This document shows positions 373 to 9,327 of a stretch of 64,000 nt of DNA, one piece after another. Each line of letters starts with the position of its first letter. Position 1 is the first letter of the stretch. A program made the position numbers and the translations under genes. This stretch comes from Kordia algicida OT-1 (GTDB lineage: Bacteria > Bacteroidota > Bacteroidia > Flavobacteriales > Flavobacteriaceae): assembly GCF_000154725.1 (NCBI RefSeq), contig NZ_DS544873.1:491569-555568 (forward strand), given 5' to 3'. The notes under the pieces were generated by a model, which saw only the letters and a program-made list of their open reading frames with translations, was not told where the DNA came from and did not search any database.

Positions 373-403
373 ATATTTGATGAATTAGTCTTGGGCAATA
401 TTT

Positions 404-438
404 AGAGAGGTAATTTTAACTAAAGACCTCTCTTTTTT
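404..438 (+). terminator. Rho-independent terminator of the T9SS-secreted protein gene
   Basis: An 8-bp stem (AGAGAGGT at 404-411, ACCTCTCT at 426-433) is followed directly by a run of T, 30 bp after the stop codon. The remaining stretch to 580 holds no supported gene. Confidence 0.8.
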
Positions 439-580
439 ATTAAGCTAATTTCATACCTTAAAATATCTCTAAGAAAGATTCTACACTTACACAGTTTATG
501 CGACACTACTGGATTCTTGTTGCAAACTGTTGCTGATTTCATGGTTGCTTTTATGAACTATTTAAAAGTCAAGGGTAAAG

Positions 581-684
581 AAAAAAGCGACATCGATGAT
601 GCCGCTTTAAATGTTTTCACAACGGAATAATCCTTATTGTGAAATGCTTTCATTTTGTATTGGCAATATACATAAAAAAAAGTT
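581..684 (-). ncRNA. tracrRNA of the type II-C CRISPR-Cas system
   Basis: Read on the minus strand, the anti-repeat at 659-636 pairs with 24 nt of the array repeat: one internal mismatch (C9 of the repeat against U) and one terminal G-U. It is followed by the nexus-like segment AAGGATTATTCCGTT, an AACATTT linker, and an 8-bp terminator stem GCGGCATC/GATGTCGC (605-587, one G-U) ending in six T (586-581). The 3' end near 581 is therefore firm. The 5' end near 684 is a guess from a TACTTTTT box at 694-687 that only partly fits TAnnTTTG; no clear -33 box was seen. It lies divergent from cas9. Known tracrRNAs pair with pre-crRNA for processing and Cas9 loading. Confidence 0.9.
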
Positions 685-775
685 TAAAAAAGTATGGTTT
701 TCCGTAAGGATAGTAATAACTTTTACTTCATTTTTATAAAATAATTCTTCATGTTCAGTGAAGTAGAATCGAGAA

Positions 776-835
776 AAAAATTAAAGCATTTCACAAAATA
801 CACTTCATTCAAATCAATGATGTGTATAAAATAGC
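776..835 (-). ncRNA. Candidate crRNA-like guide (degenerate repeat plus spacer) directed at the cas9 upstream region
   Basis: On the minus strand, bases 797-777 match repeat positions 1-21 at 18 of 21 sites (mismatches at 1, 9 and 16). The A at repeat position 9 restores pairing to the tracrRNA anti-repeat, giving 14 uninterrupted base pairs (783-796 against 637-650), better than the array repeats themselves. The sequence directly 5' would serve as a spacer, and its final 11 nt (ATGAAGTGTAT, 808-798) recur exactly at 935-945 on the plus strand, 45 bp before cas9. A perfect TAnnTTTG box sits at 847-840, placing a start near 835. Partial-match guides of about 11 nt let Cas9 bind without cutting in the tracr-L and scaRNA systems. 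Expression and function here are inference. Read-through into the tracrRNA would give one long self-pairing RNA. Confidence 0.6.
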
Positions 836-839
836 CAAA

Positions 840-847
840 CAAACTTA
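840..847 (-). promoter_or_regulatory. Bacteroidota -7 promoter box for the candidate guide RNA
   Basis: On the minus strand this reads TAAGTTTG, an exact TAnnTTTG. A start 4-6 nt downstream would leave a 5' guide of about 37 nt before the degenerate repeat. No TTG was found at the -33 position, so the promoter is incomplete by consensus. Confidence 0.5.
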
Positions 848-934
848 TTTGCCAGAAATTCGCTTTGGACACGAAATTCGAAACCTCATGCATTAGGTTC
901 TTAACTATTTTCAACAAATATATATAAATTATAT

Positions 935-945
935 ATGAAGTGTAT
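935..945 (+). promoter_or_regulatory. Possible autoregulatory Cas9 target upstream of cas9
   Basis: The 11-mer ATGAAGTGTAT is the exact inverted partner of 798-808, the spacer end of the candidate guide RNA. It lies in the AT-rich leader where the cas9 promoter must be; a TATTTTTT resembling TAnnTTTG follows near 957-965. The 3' flank that would act as PAM begins GAGTTTTT. Similarity upstream of the 11-mer is not above chance, which fits a binding-only target. Confidence 0.5.
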
Positions 946-989
946 GAGTTTTTTAAATTATTTTTTTAAATTGTTAAAAATTATATTAC

Positions 990-3900
990 ATGAAAAAAAT
1001 TCTAGGGTTAGATTTAGGAACGAATTCCATTGGTTGGGCGTTGGTAAACGAAGCAGAACATGAACATGAGCAATCAAGTATTGTAAAATTGGGTGTTCGA
1101 GTTAATCCTTTGTCAGTTGATGAAAAAACAAATTTTGAAAAAGGAAGGCCATTATCTATAAATGCTGATAGAACAAGTAAAAGAAGTGCCCGTAGAAATT
1201 TACAGCGTTTTAAACTCAGAAGAAAAAATCTTATAAATTTATTATTGAAACATCATATCATCAGTAATGAAACAATATTAACCGAAGTTGGTAAGAACAC
1301 AACACACCAAACATTAAAATTGCGTTCAAAAGCTACTCAAGAAAAAATATCACTAGAAGAATTTGCTCGTATACTATTATCTATTAATAAAAAAAGAGGC
1401 TATAAAAGTAGTAGAAAAGAAAAAAATGAAGATGAAGGCTTTACGATTGACGGAATGGCTATTGCGAAGGAATTATATGACAATCAATTAACACCTGGAC
1501 AATATGTATATAATATCCTTCAAGATGGTAAAAATTACATTCCAGACTTTTATCGATCGGATTTGCAAGCAGAATTTGATGATGTTTGGCAATTTCAAAA
1601 GAAGTTTTATTCTTCAATCTTAACGGATGAGTTCTACTTAAAGTTAAAAGGACAAGGAAAAGAGAATACTCGCAAACTGTTTTTAGCAATTCATCAAGTA
1701 TATACCGCAGAAAATAAAGGAAAACGGGATGCCGTAAAATTACAATATTATAAATGGAGAAGTGAAGCTGTAAAAAAGCAGCTCTCTATTGAAGAAGTAG
1801 CGTATGTATTGGTTGAAATTAATAACAATATCAACAAGTCAAGTGGATATTTAGGAGCAATTAGCGATCGTAGTAAAGCCTTGTATTTTAATAATGAAAC
1901 GGTTGGAGAATATTTATATGGTCAGTTAGTAAAAAATCGGCATAATTCACTAAGAAATCAGGTGTTTTATCGTCAGGATTATTTGGATGAATTTGAAAAA
2001 ATTTGGGAAACACAAGCTAAATTTTACGATGAACTTACCAACGAATTAAAGCAAGAAATTCGAGATGTTGTGATATTTTATCAACGTAAATTAAAATCAC
2101 AAAAACACTTAATTTCTGACTGTCTATTTGAAAAACATCACAAAGCAATTCCAAAGTCTTCTCCGTTATTTCAAGAATTCAAAATATGGCAAAACCTTAA
2201 TTATTTAGAATTTGTACACACGCAAAGCAAAGAAAAAATCTTTTTTAGTGAATTGGATGATGAAACAAGGCAGTTTGTTTTTGCAGAATTGAATATAAGA
2301 GGTACGTTAAAAATAAAAGAAATTAAAAAACTAATTGGTCTAGAAACGCCAGTATATTGGAAGTCTAATTTTGATGAAATTGAAGGAAATCGAACCAATC
2401 AAGTGTTGTATAATGTATACCAAAACATTGCAGATGATTTAGGTTATGGTTTTGATTGGTCTAAAAAACATGCCTTTGAAATTAATGCGGAATTACAAGC
2501 AATTTTTAAAGATGTTGGTATTGATACTGCTATTCTAAATTTTGACGCATCAATTGAAGAAAATGATTTCGATAAACAAAAAAGCTATCAATTATGGCAT
2601 TTATTATACTCGGCAGAAGATACTGACAAGGCAACTGAAGAAGATAAATTGATATATGGAAATATCAATACAAAACTAAAAAAACAGCTTCATCAGAAAT
2701 ATGGCTTTGAAGCCAAGTATGGTAATTTATTAGCTAACATTTCTCTACAACAAGATTATGGAAATCTTAGTGCGAAAGCTATTAAAAAAATACTTCCATA
2801 CTTGGAAAGTGGAAATAGCTTTTATGAAGCGTGTACTATTGTAGGTTATAATCCTTCTAATTCTTTGACCAAAGAGCAACAACAAAACAGAAAATTGAAA
2901 GATAAATTAGAACTATTACCTAAAAATAGTTTACGTAATCCTGTAGTCGAAAAGATTTTAAATCAGAAAGTAAATTTAATTAATCAATTGATTGATGAAT
3001 ATGGCAAACCTGATGAGGTTCGTATAGAATTGGCACGCGAACTCAAAAAATCAGCTAAACAACGTGCAGACTTATCAAAACATATCAATGATGCTACATT
3101 AAAAAATCAAAACATTCGGAAAACTCTCCAAAAAGATTTTGGGATACAAAATCCTTCTAAAAATGATGTAATTCGTTATAAACTATATGACGAACTAAAA
3201 GATAATGGATACAAAACTTTGTTCACAAATAAATATATACCTAAAGAGCAATTGTTCTCTAAAGATGTTGATATAGAACATATTATACCTAAAGCAATTT
3301 TATTTGACGATTCTTTTTCTAACAAAACTTTAGCTTACAGAAATGTAAATTTAGCTAAAGCAGACGCTACCGCTTTTGACTTTATCTCTAGTAAACACTT
3401 GGATGATTTAGATAATTACAAAGCAAGAGTAGAAACATTATTTCAATCAAAGCGAATTAGTAAAGGGAAATACAAAAAGTTACTGATGACACGGCAAAAT
3501 TTGCCTGAAGATTTCATTGAAAGAGATTTAAGAAATAGTCAATATATTGCTAAAAAAGCAACAGCAATGCTCAAAGAAGTATTTCGATCAGTCGTTCCTA
3601 CAAGCGGAAGAATCACTGACAAACTTCGTGAAGACTGGGACTTAGTTAATGTAATGAAGGAATTGAATTTGCCTAAATATAGAACTCTAGGATTGACCGA
3701 ATTCATTGAACGTAAAAATGGAAATAAAATAGAGCAAATCATTGATTGGACAAAGCGAAACGATCATCGTCATCACGCAATGGATGCTTTAACAGTGGCT
3801 TTTACTACGCATAATCACATACAATACTTAAATAATTTGAATGTAACTCATGGATTGAATGGAGTTGATACCGATCATGAGAAAAGCAGACTATATGCTA

Positions 3901-5165
3901 TAAAACAAGCCATTACTAAAGTATATATAGTAGGAAAAACTAAGAAGCGAAAATTTATTCCTCCAATGGAGAACTTCAGAAGTCATGCTAAAAATCATTT
4001 GGAAGGAATATTAATCTCTTTCAAAAACAAAAATAAAGTAGTAACAAAAAATAAAAACAGAACCAAGACAAAAACGAAAGGAGTATTTAATGAAAAAATT
4101 CAGTTGACGCCAAGAGGTCAGTTACACAAAGAGACTATTTATGGTCACGCAAAGAAAGTAATTGTGACTAAAGAAAAAGTGTCAAGTAAGTTTACACACG
4201 AAAAAATACTACAAGTAACTAAACCAGCTTATCGAGAAGCTTTATTAAAAAGATTAGCTAGTTTTAAAAACGATCCAAAAAAAGCTTTTTCAGGAAAAAA
4301 TGCGTTGAGTAAAAATCCTCTATATTTTGATATAACAAGTGGAAAAAAAGTTCCCGACACAGTTAAATTAAGTTATTTTGAAAACTCATATGTAATACGA
4401 AAAGAAGTAAATTCTGATAATTTTAAGAATGAAAAAAGTTTACAAAAAGTTTTAGATGTAGGTATTAGACGTATACTAGAAAAAAGACTTGCTGACTATA
4501 ATGGAAATGCTAAAGAAGCCTTTTCAAACTTGGAAAAAAATCCTATTTGGAAAGATAAAGAAAAAGGAGTTTGTATAAAAAAAGTTCGCATTGAAGCTCT
4601 CAAAAATGCAGAACCATTACATGTTAAAAAAGATCATTTAGGAAAAATAATTTTAGATGATGAAAATAAAAGTACTCCAGTTGACTTTATAAGCACAGGA
4701 AACAATCATCATGTTGCTATCTATGAAGATAAAGACGGAAAACTGCACGACAAAGTAGTGTCATTTTATGAAGTTGTTTCACGAGTTAATTTAGGTTTAC
4801 CAATAATTGACAAATCATTTAATTCACATTTGGATTGGAAATTTTTATTTTCAATGAAGCAAAATGAAATGTTTGTATTTCCGTCGGAAGATTTTAACCC
4901 GAAAGAGATTGATATAGGAAATCCAAAAAACAATGAGCTTATTTCTAAATACTTATTCAGAGTTCAAAAGTTTTCAAAAGTAACTTATGGTAACTCTGCT
5001 GTTAGAGATTATGTTTTTAGACATCATTTAGAGACTGAATTAATAGATAAAAAAGAATTAAAAGGAATAACTTATTATCAATTAAAAAGCATAGGAATGC
5101 TCGAAAAATTGGTAAAAGTAAGAATCAATCACATCGGAAAAATTGTACACATAGGAGAATATTAA
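990..5165 (+). CDS. cas9: CRISPR-associated endonuclease Cas9, type II-C
   Basis: This 1391-aa protein is the RNA-guided double-strand nuclease of the locus. RuvC-I is at the N-terminus (GLDLGTNSIGWAL, catalytic D8). The arginine-rich bridge helix spans about 61-80. RuvC-II is VRIELAREL with E680. The HNH domain holds DIEHIIPK with H764 and the downstream SNKTLAYRNVNLAK. RuvC-III is HRHHAMDAL with D932. All four catalytic positions are intact, so it should be active. The remaining ~450 residues form the wedge/PAM-interacting region. The length is typical of the large II-C Cas9s of Flavobacteriia, and the absence of csn2 and cas4 supports II-C. The ATG at 990 gives the canonical MKKILGLD start. 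cas1 follows after 12 bp, so the three cas genes form one operon. Its upstream region may be a target of a locus-encoded guide (see 776-835). Confidence 0.98.
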   Translation: MKKILGLDLGTNSIGWALVNEAEHEHEQSSIVKLGVRVNPLSVDEKTNFEKGRPLSINADRTSKRSARRNLQRFKLRRKNLINLLLKHHIISNETILTEVGKNTTHQTLKLRSKATQEKISLEEFARILLSINKKRGYKSSRKEKNEDEGFTIDGMAIAKELYDNQLTPGQYVYNILQDGKNYIPDFYRSDLQAEFDDVWQFQKKFYSSILTDEFYLKLKGQGKENTRKLFLAIHQVYTAENKGKRDAVKLQYYKWRSEAVKKQLSIEEVAYVLVEINNNINKSSGYLGAISDRSKALYFNNETVGEYLYGQLVKNRHNSLRNQVFYRQDYLDEFEKIWETQAKFYDELTNELKQEIRDVVIFYQRKLKSQKHLISDCLFEKHHKAIPKSSPLFQEFKIWQNLNYLEFVHTQSKEKIFFSELDDETRQFVFAELNIRGTLKIKEIKKLIGLETPVYWKSNFDEIEGNRTNQVLYNVYQNIADDLGYGFDWSKKHAFEINAELQAIFKDVGIDTAILNFDASIEENDFDKQKSYQLWHLLYSAEDTDKATEEDKLIYGNINTKLKKQLHQKYGFEAKYGNLLANISLQQDYGNLSAKAIKKILPYLESGNSFYEACTIVGYNPSNSLTKEQQQNRKLKDKLELLPKNSLRNPVVEKILNQKVNLINQLIDEYGKPDEVRIELARELKKSAKQRADLSKHINDATLKNQNIRKTLQKDFGIQNPSKNDVIRYKLYDELKDNGYKTLFTNKYIPKEQLFSKDVDIEHIIPKAILFDDSFSNKTLAYRNVNLAKADATAFDFISSKHLDDLDNYKARVETLFQSKRISKGKYKKLLMTRQNLPEDFIERDLRNSQYIAKKATAMLKEVFRSVVPTSGRITDKLREDWDLVNVMKELNLPKYRTLGLTEFIERKNGNKIEQIIDWTKRNDHRHHAMDALTVAFTTHNHIQYLNNLNVTHGLNGVDTDHEKSRLYAIKQAITKVYIVGKTKKRKFIPPMENFRSHAKNHLEGILISFKNKNKVVTKNKNRTKTKTKGVFNEKIQLTPRGQLHKETIYGHAKKVIVTKEKVSSKFTHEKILQVTKPAYREALLKRLASFKNDPKKAFSGKNALSKNPLYFDITSGKKVPDTVKLSYFENSYVIRKEVNSDNFKNEKSLQKVLDVGIRRILEKRLADYNGNAKEAFSNLEKNPIWKDKEKGVCIKKVRIEALKNAEPLHVKKDHLGKIILDDENKSTPVDFISTGNNHHVAIYEDKDGKLHDKVVSFYEVVSRVNLGLPIIDKSFNSHLDWKFLFSMKQNEMFVFPSEDFNPKEIDIGNPKNNELISKYLFRVQKFSKVTYGNSAVRDYVFRHHLETELIDKKELKGITYYQLKSIGMLEKLVKVRINHIGKIVHIGEY

Positions 5166-5177
5166 AAAAGTTAAGTT

Positions 5178-6424
<1,247 letters not shown>

Positions 6425-6492
6425 GATTAAAAAAATCAATTAGTTTTTAATGTATTCATAACAAAAAAGGTTTTTTTTAAATTCTAAAAAGT

Positions 6493-6530
6493 AATCCCGA
6501 AGTATTGGTATTACTCAATAATTCGGGATT
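6493..6530 (-). terminator. Likely terminator of the pre-crRNA transcript
   Basis: A 9-bp perfect stem (AATCCCGAA 6493-6501, TTCGGGATT 6522-6530) with an inner TATTG/CAATA stem lies 3 bp outside the first repeat. On the minus strand it is followed by ACTTTTTAG. This fits an array transcribed on the minus strand, towards cas2. Confidence 0.6.
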
Positions 6531-6533
6531 GAC

Positions 6534-7627
6534 CTTGTGATTGCTCACGTAAAATTACAAAATGAAAGCAGTTCACAACAATAATCACTTCACAGGCTGA
6601 ATGGTTTTTCTTGTGATTGCTCACGTAAAATTACAAAATGAAAGCAGTTCACAACCAGACGAAGAATTGGAACTTCTAAATAATTCTTGTGATTGCTCAC
6701 GTAAAATTACAAAATGAAAGCAGTTCACAACTATTTTTATTCCTTTCGATAAAAGAAATACCTTGTGATTGCTCACGTAAAATTACAAAATGAAAGCAGT
6801 TCACAACACTTAGGTAGCATCAATATGGATTATCTATCTTGTGATTGCTCACGTAAAATTACAAAATGAAAGCAGTTCACAACCAATACCAATTTCCAAA
6901 CGAGAATTACAACCTTGTGATTGCTCACGTAAAATTACAAAATGAAAGCAGTTCACAACTGCTCAGATTGGAATCATGTCGATTTATCACTTGTGATTGC
7001 TCACGTAAAATTACAAAATGAAAGCAGTTCACAACAAATAAACATGAAGTGATTTGTGATTTTGTCTTGTGATTGCTCACGTAAAATTACAAAATGAAAG
7101 CAGTTCACAACATGGAGTTGGATAACGAGATTAAATCGGCACTTGTGATTGCTCACGTAAAATTACAAAATGAAAGCAGTTCACAACAAAAGGGATTTAA
7201 TAAAAATAGCTAGTGAACTTGTGATTGCTCACGTAAAATTACAAAATGAAAGCAGTTCACAACAGAAATTAAAATAATCAATTAAAGGTCTTTCTTGTGA
7301 TTGCTCACGTAAAATTACAAAATGAAAGCAGTTCACAACCCTCCTAGTGTTACTTTATTCATTTTCTTTCTTGTGATTGCTCACGTAAAATTACAAAATG
7401 AAAGCAGTTCACAACTCCTGAGTACTAACCTTACTATAATAATTTCTTGTGATTGCTCACGTAAAATTACAAAATGAAAGCAGTTCACAACTCTTACTGC
7501 CAGTTTTGCAATAGCGTTATCCTTGTGATTGCTCACGTAAAATTACAAAATGAAAGCAGTTCACAACGACGGATACAATCGTATTTCGTAAGGTTTCCTT
7601 GTGATTGCTCACGTAAAATTACAAAAT
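6534..7627 (-). CRISPR. Type II-C CRISPR array, 14 full repeats and one truncated repeat
   Basis: Full repeats of 46 bp start every 76 bp from 6534 to 7522. On the plus strand each begins CTTGTGATTGCT and ends GCAGTTCACAAC, and all 14 appear identical. All 14 spacers are exactly 30 bp and none is duplicated. A fifteenth repeat at 7598-7627 keeps only its first 30 bp. The minus strand is given as the crRNA strand because that repeat form (starting GTTGTGAACTGC) pairs with the tracrRNA anti-repeat. In that sense each repeat holds TTG at positions 2-4 and TAATTTTA at 23-30, close to a Bacteroidota promoter, so each spacer could have its own start, as known for Neisseria II-C arrays. The truncated repeat keeps the -7-like box but has lost the TTG and the tracrRNA-pairing segment. 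Confidence 0.97.
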
Positions 7628-7629
7628 AC

Positions 7630-9327
7630 TTACTCATACAAATCAAATTCCTTATTAGTTTCAATCTCTATAAATCTAGGAACTTCACTCACAAAGTAAT
7701 TCGGAATGCCTTTGTTGGTCTCTATGTAAGTATAAATTTGTGGTAATGTGATTTCGTCTTTTATATATTGCTTAATTTTATCACGCACCTTTTCTTCATT
7801 GGTTTTCTGTTTTCTTCTTGCACCTGCTTTTGTTGCTCTTTGTTGCTTTCTTGTTGCTCGTAAATCTTTATATTTTTGATACTGTTTGAGCCATTGAAGC
7901 GTATACGCAAATCCGCCTTCACTTGCTTTTTTTCGTGTTGGGTCAAAATAAATACATGGATAGTGAATACGATATACTTTTTTACTGTTAAAGAAACGTT
8001 TTGCACGATTTATTCGGTAGACTAAAAAGCCAAACATGTACAATAAGGTTTCTTTTCTTGGAATGCTTCCGTTTGGATTACGCAAGTATTCATCATCAAT
8101 ATGAATATATGCATTATGCCAACTTCCATAATACACATTCATGTCTTTCCAAATAGGTGCTGCCATTTTCAAAAATAGTTGTAACAGTAATTCTCTATAT
8201 TCTTCTCTTGACATAGCTCCTTTGATCGCTTCTACTTCCAAGCGTTTATTCATATTGGAAGCTGAAAAGCTGTAAGTATCGTAATGATTTGCTGTTAATG
8301 CTTGAAACAATTCACTTCTATACTGTATTTGACTCCGTAAGTACTCGGATAAGCAGTTTTTGGGGAAAATTTCGCCGCCTAGTTTGCCTGCGTTTTCATT
8401 GGAAAATTTTATGCGATCATCCTTTTTGGGGATCTTGTGAGGGTTCTTGTTTTTGCTACTATTTTCAGTAGCAAATGAAAATACTTCCGAATTTTGGGAA
8501 TGGTTATCAACATTCCCTACTTTCTTTATTATTTCTTTAGTAAATGTTCTTGTATCTTCACTTTTATCACGAACTTTTTTCGTTAAAAAATCCGTAACAG
8601 TTTGATTGTCATCTGAAGTCAAAGATTTATCATGCATTTGAAAAATGGCTTCATTGATAAAGAAATGAACAGGTTTTTTAGTTCCGTGAAAACTGTAATC
8701 GGTAATAATTCCTGCATCACGTAAACGATATATATGATTTTGGACTGTACGAGAAGAATATAAAATTCTACGTTCTCCGTCATTGGTTAAATGTGCAATC
8801 GCTGTAGCGGTAATTTTGACTTTTGGAAAGCTAACTGCAAGATTGGTATCTAATGCTGTTAAATGCTTTCTAAGTTCACTTAACTGATTTCCATATAACC
8901 ATAAGATAACTTCAAAAGTACGCTCATGCATGGCTTTTATTTTAGAATACTTTCTTTTAGGAAGTAATAACATATTTCCGTTAGTAGATGCTACTAAGGA
9001 ATTATAATCTTTAATAGAAAGCCATTTCACTTTTGAATTCTGTTGCTGTCTATTCTCAAAATTAAATTGAGCAGTAACGGCTTGTTGTTTTAAATTATAG
9101 GTTGCAATAAATTCTTGAACGCTTTTGTTGTAAACAGAAACTTCTTTGTTCAGTTCTTTTACTGAGTCATTATAAGAATTCACAAAGCTTCTATAACGTT
9201 TCAACATCTGTAAACGATCTTCACTTAATATATAAGGACGTAATGTTTTCTTTGGAATTCGATCTTTAATGATAATGAAGCTACTACCATTTTGAACTGT
9301 TGCTGTACTATTATGAGCATGCTTCAT
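7630..9327 (-). CDS. Uncharacterised 565-aa protein with a winged-helix-like segment
   Basis: I do not recognise this family. The N-terminal ~100 residues look helical (RSFVNSYNDSVKELNKEVSVYNKSV). Around residues 185-210 the pattern SSRTVQNHIYRLRDAGII is typical of a helix-turn-helix or winged helix with a 'recognise and silence' layout. A low-complexity polar linker (about 250-320) follows, then an aromatic domain (YYGSWHNAYIHIDDEYL, FNSKKVYRIHYPCIYFDP) and a basic stretch (ATRKQQRATKAGARRKQK). Such DNA-binding proteins of unknown role occur on flavobacterial mobile elements; replication initiation is possible but unproven. Its stop codon lies 2 bp from the cut-off last CRISPR repeat, and its start codon is inside a 22-bp inverted repeat (9313-9369). 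Confidence 0.6.
   Translation of the reverse strand: MKHAHNSTATVQNGSSFIIIKDRIPKKTLRPYILSEDRLQMLKRYRSFVNSYNDSVKELNKEVSVYNKSVQEFIATYNLKQQAVTAQFNFENRQQQNSKVKWLSIKDYNSLVASTNGNMLLLPKRKYSKIKAMHERTFEVILWLYGNQLSELRKHLTALDTNLAVSFPKVKITATAIAHLTNDGERRILYSSRTVQNHIYRLRDAGIITDYSFHGTKKPVHFFINEAIFQMHDKSLTSDDNQTVTDFLTKKVRDKSEDTRTFTKEIIKKVGNVDNHSQNSEVFSFATENSSKNKNPHKIPKKDDRIKFSNENAGKLGGEIFPKNCLSEYLRSQIQYRSELFQALTANHYDTYSFSASNMNKRLEVEAIKGAMSREEYRELLLQLFLKMAAPIWKDMNVYYGSWHNAYIHIDDEYLRNPNGSIPRKETLLYMFGFLVYRINRAKRFFNSKKVYRIHYPCIYFDPTRKKASEGGFAYTLQWLKQYQKYKDLRATRKQQRATKAGARRKQKTNEEKVRDKIKQYIKDEITLPQIYTYIETNKGIPNYFVSEVPRFIEIETNKEFDLYE

Follow-up and report, generated by a model that had tools for sequence, protein, structure and literature searches.

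A crRNA-like guide between tracrRNA and cas9 as a candidate autorepressor of Cas9 in type II-C loci of Bacteroidota

Stand-alone repeats with short matches to cas promoters, termed crRNA-like regulatory elements or mini-arrays, were reportedly described by Shmakov et al. in 2023, and are said to belong mostly to type I systems and also to type V-A, not to type II-C. Autorepression of Cas9 by a guide with a short match is already described for type II-A, where tracr-L of Streptococcus pyogenes acts in this way (Workman et al. 2021, as described in PMC8616872), and the available part of that account states that tracr-L was not found in other subtypes. Predictions of scaRNA, which within type II-C concern Neisseria and Pasteurella, and a single-guide-like RNA in Listeria appear in the available text of PMC6199352. 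According to the portion of PMC13431127 concerned with the scaRNA of Neisseria meningitidis, the genes that it regulates have 5' UTRs without a bona fide short DNA target. No such element occurs in the accessible portions of PMC11417352, PMC10309648, PMC12609912, PMC9067536, PMC5006608 and PMC13383573, and none of the matches listed, which comprise titles and the starts of abstracts with subscription papers mostly outside the scope, concerns short-match autorepression in type II-C systems of Bacteroidota.

The window analysed here is a 64-kb stretch of the genome of Kordia algicida OT-1. It begins with a type II-C locus arranged in the order tracrRNA, a 330-bp gap that holds the guide unit, cas9, cas1, cas2 and the CRISPR array (Table 1), in which the minus strand is the crRNA sense of the array repeat and likewise encodes the tracrRNA. 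We propose that the interval very probably encodes a crRNA-like regulatory guide by which Cas9 represses its own gene, a scaRNA-like autorepressor that would be the type II-C counterpart of tracr-L. The evidence is that of sequence, and consists of the repeat, the match and the hairpin in the window, together with recurrence and the PAM and promoter-box statistics in relatives. In the proposed mechanism, a minus-strand transcript would carry the spacer-like stretch and the degenerate repeat, the degenerate repeat would pair with the tracrRNA anti-repeat, and the complex would load into Cas9. Through eleven nucleotides of the guide, the complex would then recognise a site that has an NRR-type PAM and lies at the putative cas9 promoter or 5' leader (935-950); so short a match would allow binding without cutting, bound Cas9 would block RNA polymerase, and the fall in cas9 would constitute negative feedback. 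The hairpin formed by the guide may help to keep the pairing short.

Table 1. Features of the type II-C locus and of the proposed guide unit (window positions)
Feature	Position	Strand	Remarks
tracrRNA core	584..659	-	anti-repeat 659-637, nexus, terminator 608-584
Degenerate CRISPR repeat	777..797	-	TTTGTGAAATGCTTTAATTTT; 18/21 identical to array repeat start GTTGTGAACTGCTTTCATTTT
11-nt guide, PAM-proximal end of spacer-like stretch	798..808	-	ATGAAGTGTAT; abuts degenerate repeat; exact match to 935-945
Spacer-like stretch, 30 nt, folds as hairpin	798..827	-	arm 827-816 (ATACACATCATT) pairs with guide arm 809-798
TAAGTTTG, match to Bacteroidetes -7 box TAnnTTTG	840..847	-	candidate promoter of guide RNA
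TATATTTG, second -7-like box on guide strand	915..922	-	also in L084
Target site upstream of cas9	935..945	+	exact 11-mer copy; guide RNA would pair with template strand
GAGTT, putative PAM	946..950	+	NRR common to 14/15 target sites
cas9	990..5165	+	1391 aa; NCBIfam TIGR01865, 504 bits
cas1	5178..6068	+	TIGR03639
cas2	6080..6424	+	TIGR01573
CRISPR array	6534..7643	-	46-nt repeats, 30-nt spacers

The sequence-only reading had placed in this gap a degenerate repeat 18/21 identical to the array repeat, an 11-mer recurring upstream of cas9 and a TAnnTTTG box, and all three lie where it put them (minus 797-777, minus 808-798 with 935-945, and minus 847-840); the 11-mer is exact and occurs in the window in two copies only, the guide and the target. 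TAnnTTTG is given as the consensus of the Bacteroidetes -7 box in the available text of PMC10309648. The reading had also held that the degenerate repeat fits the tracrRNA anti-repeat better than the array repeat does; its 14 contiguous pairs are borne out, but the overall pairing is weaker, at -20.2 vs -29.3 kcal/mol for the array repeat. The hairpin at 827-798 has the 30-nt length of an array spacer, and the pairing of its arms stands out against shuffled arms (p = 0.016). The target ends 44 bp before cas9, and from its place, and from the homologous locus L084 of the same genus, we infer that it belongs to the cas9 promoter or leader; there is no perfect cas9-strand TAnnTTTG box near the window target, and L084 has TAAATTTG at the place equivalent to the missing box. 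As in a scaRNA, the sequence is crRNA-like, lies outside the array and has repeat homology complementary to the tracrRNA anti-repeat, with a short PAM-adjacent match (11 nt and GAGTT) to endogenous DNA near the putative transcription start; as in tracr-L, about 11 nt match the locus's own putative cas promoter. It differs from a CRISPR array unit in having one degenerate repeat and no flanking pair, about 5.7 kb from the array. Unlike type II-A, the subtype of tracr-L, which is marked by csn2, the locus has cas9, cas1 and cas2 followed by the array, with no fourth gene (ORFs of at least 80 aa) between cas2 and the array. Rfam gave no match in window 373-1000 at E up to 0.5.

Further features of the locus were observed alongside the unit. 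In the array, the 5' half of the first repeat (7598-7643) is degenerate, and behind the last repeat lies a terminator-like hairpin, at about 6490-6533; both may be likened to the ways of suppressing extraneous crRNA in type II-C that are summarised in the available text of an editorial. An inverted repeat of the form ACGGN4CCGT lies at 692-707 (copy ACGGAAAACCAT, one mismatch) and, with one mismatch allowed, is present in 44 of 197 relatives at an almost constant distance upstream of the tracrRNA nexus (median 69 nt, IQR 65-72), whereas of two palindromes used as controls one occurs in 0/197 and the other in 1/197; the inverted repeat is a candidate operator. A palindrome, AACCTCATGCATTAGGTT, followed by GTGTCCAAA on the minus strand, occupies 882-899, and L084 has a palindrome of other spelling at the equivalent place.

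Relatives were drawn from the best 80 Cas9 matches, from same-genus loci and from tracrRNA or Cas9 matches in family, class, order and phylum samples. From 274 loci, the window included, 245 had a cas9 start and a tracrRNA nexus and gave 197 distinct regions; 15 loci with a nexus but no cas9 start motif, which were scanned for units separately, and 14 others were set aside. Units are present in 15 of the 197 distinct gaps, about one in thirteen in a sample that is not random, since 80 loci are the best Cas9 matches and most others are tracrRNA matches from the family, order and phylum samples. The positive loci are the window, L009, L052, L063, L079, L084, L100, L101, L154, L207, L221, L225, L239, L245 and L251. 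The distance from cas9 to the nexus is short as a rule (median 122 nt), and units occur in 15 of the 19 gaps of at least 300 nt (those without one being L147, L161, L187 and L216) and in none of the 178 shorter gaps. Because most relatives have a compact gap without a unit, the unit is not conserved as sequence; the same-genus sister loci L082 and L083 have none, and gain or loss has been frequent, with 14 parsimony changes for 15 positives on a FastTree phylogeny of the Cas9 N-terminal region.

A repeat was accepted at 13/17 or better to the repeat consensus, a criterion that alone gave 22 matches, compared with 0-3 in each of ten shuffles. Six of the 22 are anti-repeats of a second tracrRNA and were left out by rule, and the remaining 16 candidates, which score 13-17 of 17 and lie in 15 loci, consist of 14 units, the repeat of L033 and an additional repeat in L225. 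The unit of L052 was recognised by eye and not by the repeat rule; it stands among the 15 units, outside the 16 candidates and outside the hairpin test. L033 was not counted as a unit (repeat 13/17, no guide match beyond 2 nt), nor was L083, in which a repeat-like stretch, TTTGTGAATTTC, lies directly at the cas9 start codon and may be what is left of a deleted unit. When 66 loci of at least 9 kb were scanned, no further convincing unit appeared outside the tracrRNA-cas9 gap, matches of 9-12 nt elsewhere in these loci being read as array spacers or low-complexity stretches. A crRNA-like unit with a terminator lies beside the tracrRNA in L234 (about 1936-2000), in a genome in which no cas9 was found. 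Six loci (L093, L109, L187, L228, L240 and L267) have a second tracrRNA-like unit between the main tracrRNA and cas9, made up of an anti-repeat, a short alternative nexus such as AAGGCTTAAAAGCC and then a terminator-like hairpin (read in five of the six, not in L093).

The guides differ among lineages, and in the 15 units 7-12 nt adjoining the repeat have a match in the cas9 upstream region of the same host. The match was defined as the longest run directly before the repeat that is found in the rest of the same gap, the hairpin-arm zone being excluded. Its length is 12 nt in L052, L100 and L245, 11 nt in the window, L154, L221 and L239, 10 nt in L063, L207 and L251, 9 nt in L009, 8 nt in L079, L101 and L225, and 7 nt in L084, and the 16 candidates give lengths of 2, 7, 8, 8, 8, 9, 10, 10, 10, 10, 11, 11, 11, 11, 12 and 12. 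The absence of any match longer than 12 nt would be expected if a longer match led to self-cutting. Matches of at least 9 nt occur in 11 of 16 own pairs, compared with 6 of 238 swapped pairs of guide and region (Fisher 8e-12), and matches of at least 10 nt in 10/16 and 3/238, respectively. Against other positions of the same gaps, where 723 of 13,147 reach at least 9 nt, the combined p is 1e-9, and this null is conservative because it includes the true targets and the repeat:anti-repeat pairs. Three loci, L079, L084 and L225, do not reach significance singly (own-region p 0.15-0.19); two of the 16 candidates fall short of an anchored match of 8 nt (2 nt in L033, 7 nt in L084), and the match at the second repeat of L225 is no more than a T-rich 8-mer. 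L101 has an 8-nt match on the promoter side and a longer one of 10 nt on the other strand without NRR, the former being preferred partly for its PAM and box. A 10-nt opposite-strand match of L079 was rejected as a target, being the hairpin arm, and its 8-nt match remains.

Co-variation between guide and target was observed in two pairs of related loci. In the window and L084, guide and target agree in the six PAM-proximal nucleotides, which are GTGTAT in the former and GGTTAT in the latter, with GAG flanks of the targets 44 and 41 nt before cas9, respectively. In L245 and L239, the guides are TGTACAGAGTTA and TGTGCAGAGTTA, and the targets change alike, as does the hairpin arm.

The flanks of the targets point in the same direction, with the reservation that the NRR class and the box interval were both fixed after the targets had been seen: NRR follows the target in 14 of 15 loci (background 0.27, p about 1e-7), and a perfect cas9-strand TAnnTTTG box lies by the target in 13 of 15, compared with 2.2 expected for random positions. 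Without L101 and L079, in which the choice of target was not independent, the counts are 12/13 and 11/13. The box starts 16-29 nt downstream of the target centre in ten loci and 11-13 nt upstream of it in L100, L239 and L245, the two loci without a perfect box nearby being the window and L052. The flank is NRRTT in seven loci (window, L009, L063, L100, L101, L154 and L225) and NNAAA in four (L207, L239, L245 and L251), the latter resembling NNAAAG, the tested PAM of Flavobacterium psychrophilum Fp2Cas9 in the available text of PMC12609912. When the ends of 8 of the 14 complete array spacers were compared with a viral collection, six had no match, and two had a single 20-nt viral match each, with no match further 5' and with flanks (CTTGC and TGCAT) that are not NRRTT.

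These comparisons bear on the form of the RNA. The sequence-only reading had raised the possibility that the guide makes up the 5' portion of a long tracrRNA folded as a natural single guide, which would be a true tracr-L architecture with the same autorepression; this competes with a separate RNA and not with the autorepressive function, and for the window we regard it as possible rather than probable. In its favour, guide, repeat and tracrRNA follow one another on one strand of the window, with no clear terminator, and a weak one at best, behind the degenerate repeat, and L052, which has no terminator after its repeat, folds as a compact natural single guide with a 12-nt guide, an 11-bp repeat:anti-repeat hairpin, a nexus and a terminator. 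Against it, a fused RNA of the window would have a 117-nt loop separating repeat from anti-repeat, and 10 of the 15 loci (the window being one of the 15) have a terminator-like hairpin behind the degenerate repeat, as read from folds and sequences; an automatic scan placed its best terminator elsewhere or scored weakly for L063, L154 and L207. The hairpin has a U-rich tail in L009, L079, L084 (a short tail), L100, L101, L221, L239 and L245, and a terminator-like stem encloses the unit in L063 and L154, L207 being less clear; the terminator of L225 is weak at best, and L251 has no clear one, its unit being followed by a tRNA-like stretch in which ARAGORN called no tRNA. In L079, L154 and L207, moreover, the guide lies on the cas9 strand, opposite to the tracrRNA. 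The target in these three loci is at a promoter-like box upstream of the guide, with a tRNA gene ahead in L079 and L207, so that the guide would be part of the cas9 leader. As the general form, a long tracrRNA is thus disfavoured by the terminator-like hairpin or by the guide on the other strand, and because the hairpin is so frequent the separate, scaRNA-like dual-RNA form appears more typical. The earlier proposal of a short-match guide for Cas9 autorepression is supported by the comparative evidence of the relatives' sequences: it had looked to related loci for conservation or co-variation of the 11-mer pair, and there the guides match their own cas9 upstream regions and co-vary between the window and L084 and between L239 and L245. 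It stands with two changes, namely that the unit looks usually to be a separate scaRNA-like RNA rather than a fused one, L052 being the case that folds as a single guide, and that the window is one case of a recurrent class.

The guide might also, or mainly, regulate other genes, the cas9 match being secondary, and for this there is a precedent in the scaRNA of Francisella novicida (available text of PMC13431127). The 11-mer has 11 exact copies in the whole 5.03-Mb genome, which are the guide, the target and nine others, and with ten copies besides the guide spread across some 10 million strand positions, the chance of one in this gap is about 7e-4. The copy at L278 (genome 704421-704431) has an NRRTT flank (cgatt) and is a possible second binding site for the guide; it lies inside an open frame that spans all 609 nt fetched. 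The eight remaining exact copies have no NRRTT, one of them (L281) having an NRR flank (agaag), and all nine overlap open frames of 60 codons or more, although at L283 the overlap is less clear. Of the ten non-guide copies, only the one upstream of cas9 combines NRRTT with the absence of a 60-codon frame, and we consider regulation of other genes, as an additional or the main role, to be unlikely. A still less likely explanation is that the inverted copies (798-808, 935-945 and, in part, 816-827) are operators of a protein regulator and that the adjacent repeat is accidental. Three related copies within 150 bp would suit such a regulator, but its operators would tend to retain their sequence, whereas the copies change across relatives and yet end at the repeat junction with an NRR flank, and the hairpins of L063 and L100 contain G-U pairs. 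That the unit once belonged to an array, took its spacer from the host's own DNA and has since decayed into a functionless relic would agree with its sporadic presence (the 14 changes for 15 positives) and with the 7-nt match of L084, but is most improbable, as repeated junction-ending matches of 9-12 nt, terminators, promoter boxes by the target and co-variation would not be expected of it.

The preferred reading therefore remains that of an autorepressive guide, and the recurrence of such units with unrelated guides in type II-C suggests that negative feedback of Cas9 on cas9 has evolved repeatedly as a solution. The stretch upstream of the guide pairs with the guide at p < 0.05 in 7 of 14 units (combined p 2.7e-7; controls 4.3% of 372 positions), the pairing being not significant in L084, L100, L101, L154, L207, L221 and L239. 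We tentatively extend the model, with a little less than even confidence, to propose that type II-C systems of Bacteroidota have repeatedly evolved a distinct class of self-repressing guides in which a complementary 5' arm would tie up the seed in a hairpin, limiting the growth of the R-loop so that fully active Cas9 could occupy its own promoter and leave it uncut; the forms would be a separate RNA, a natural single guide (L052) and a guide within the cas9 leader (L154, L207 and L079). Engineered hairpin guides embody a similar idea. For each of 15 loci, the analysis yields a predicted guide:target pair and an inferred PAM flank; it also contributes a candidate for a natural single guide RNA in type II-C and the hairpin-guide design, and it implies that work with these Cas9s in their native loci should expect a self-targeting guide.

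Among described systems, the scaRNA of N. meningitidis shares with the units the subtype II-C, a place outside the array and the binding of Cas9, which is predicted here; it acts on efeO mRNA, unlike the proposed cas9 DNA target (PMC13431127, available text), and was predicted upstream of the array (PMC6199352, available text) and not between tracrRNA and cas9. The F. novicida scaRNA of type II-B is likewise, in the available text of PMC13431127, a stand-alone CRISPR-associated RNA that acts with tracrRNA and Cas9, through a limited match of 9-15 bp beside a PAM, close to where transcription starts, on the template strand of the 5' UTR; it represses a regulon of four other genes, whereas in the loci examined here the target is the own cas9 upstream region. 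The likeness to tracr-L lies in the short, 11-nt match at the own cas promoter beside a PAM and in being encoded next to the tracrRNA (PMC8616872, available text). Tracr-L is an extended tracrRNA, a single RNA, whereas most of the units described here resemble separate crRNA-like RNAs that have a terminator of their own, three lie on the other strand and L052 looks fused, and the subtype is II-C and the phylum Bacteroidota. Binding without cleavage, with negative feedback on the cas genes, is the action of tracr-L, and the same would apply to the guides proposed here.
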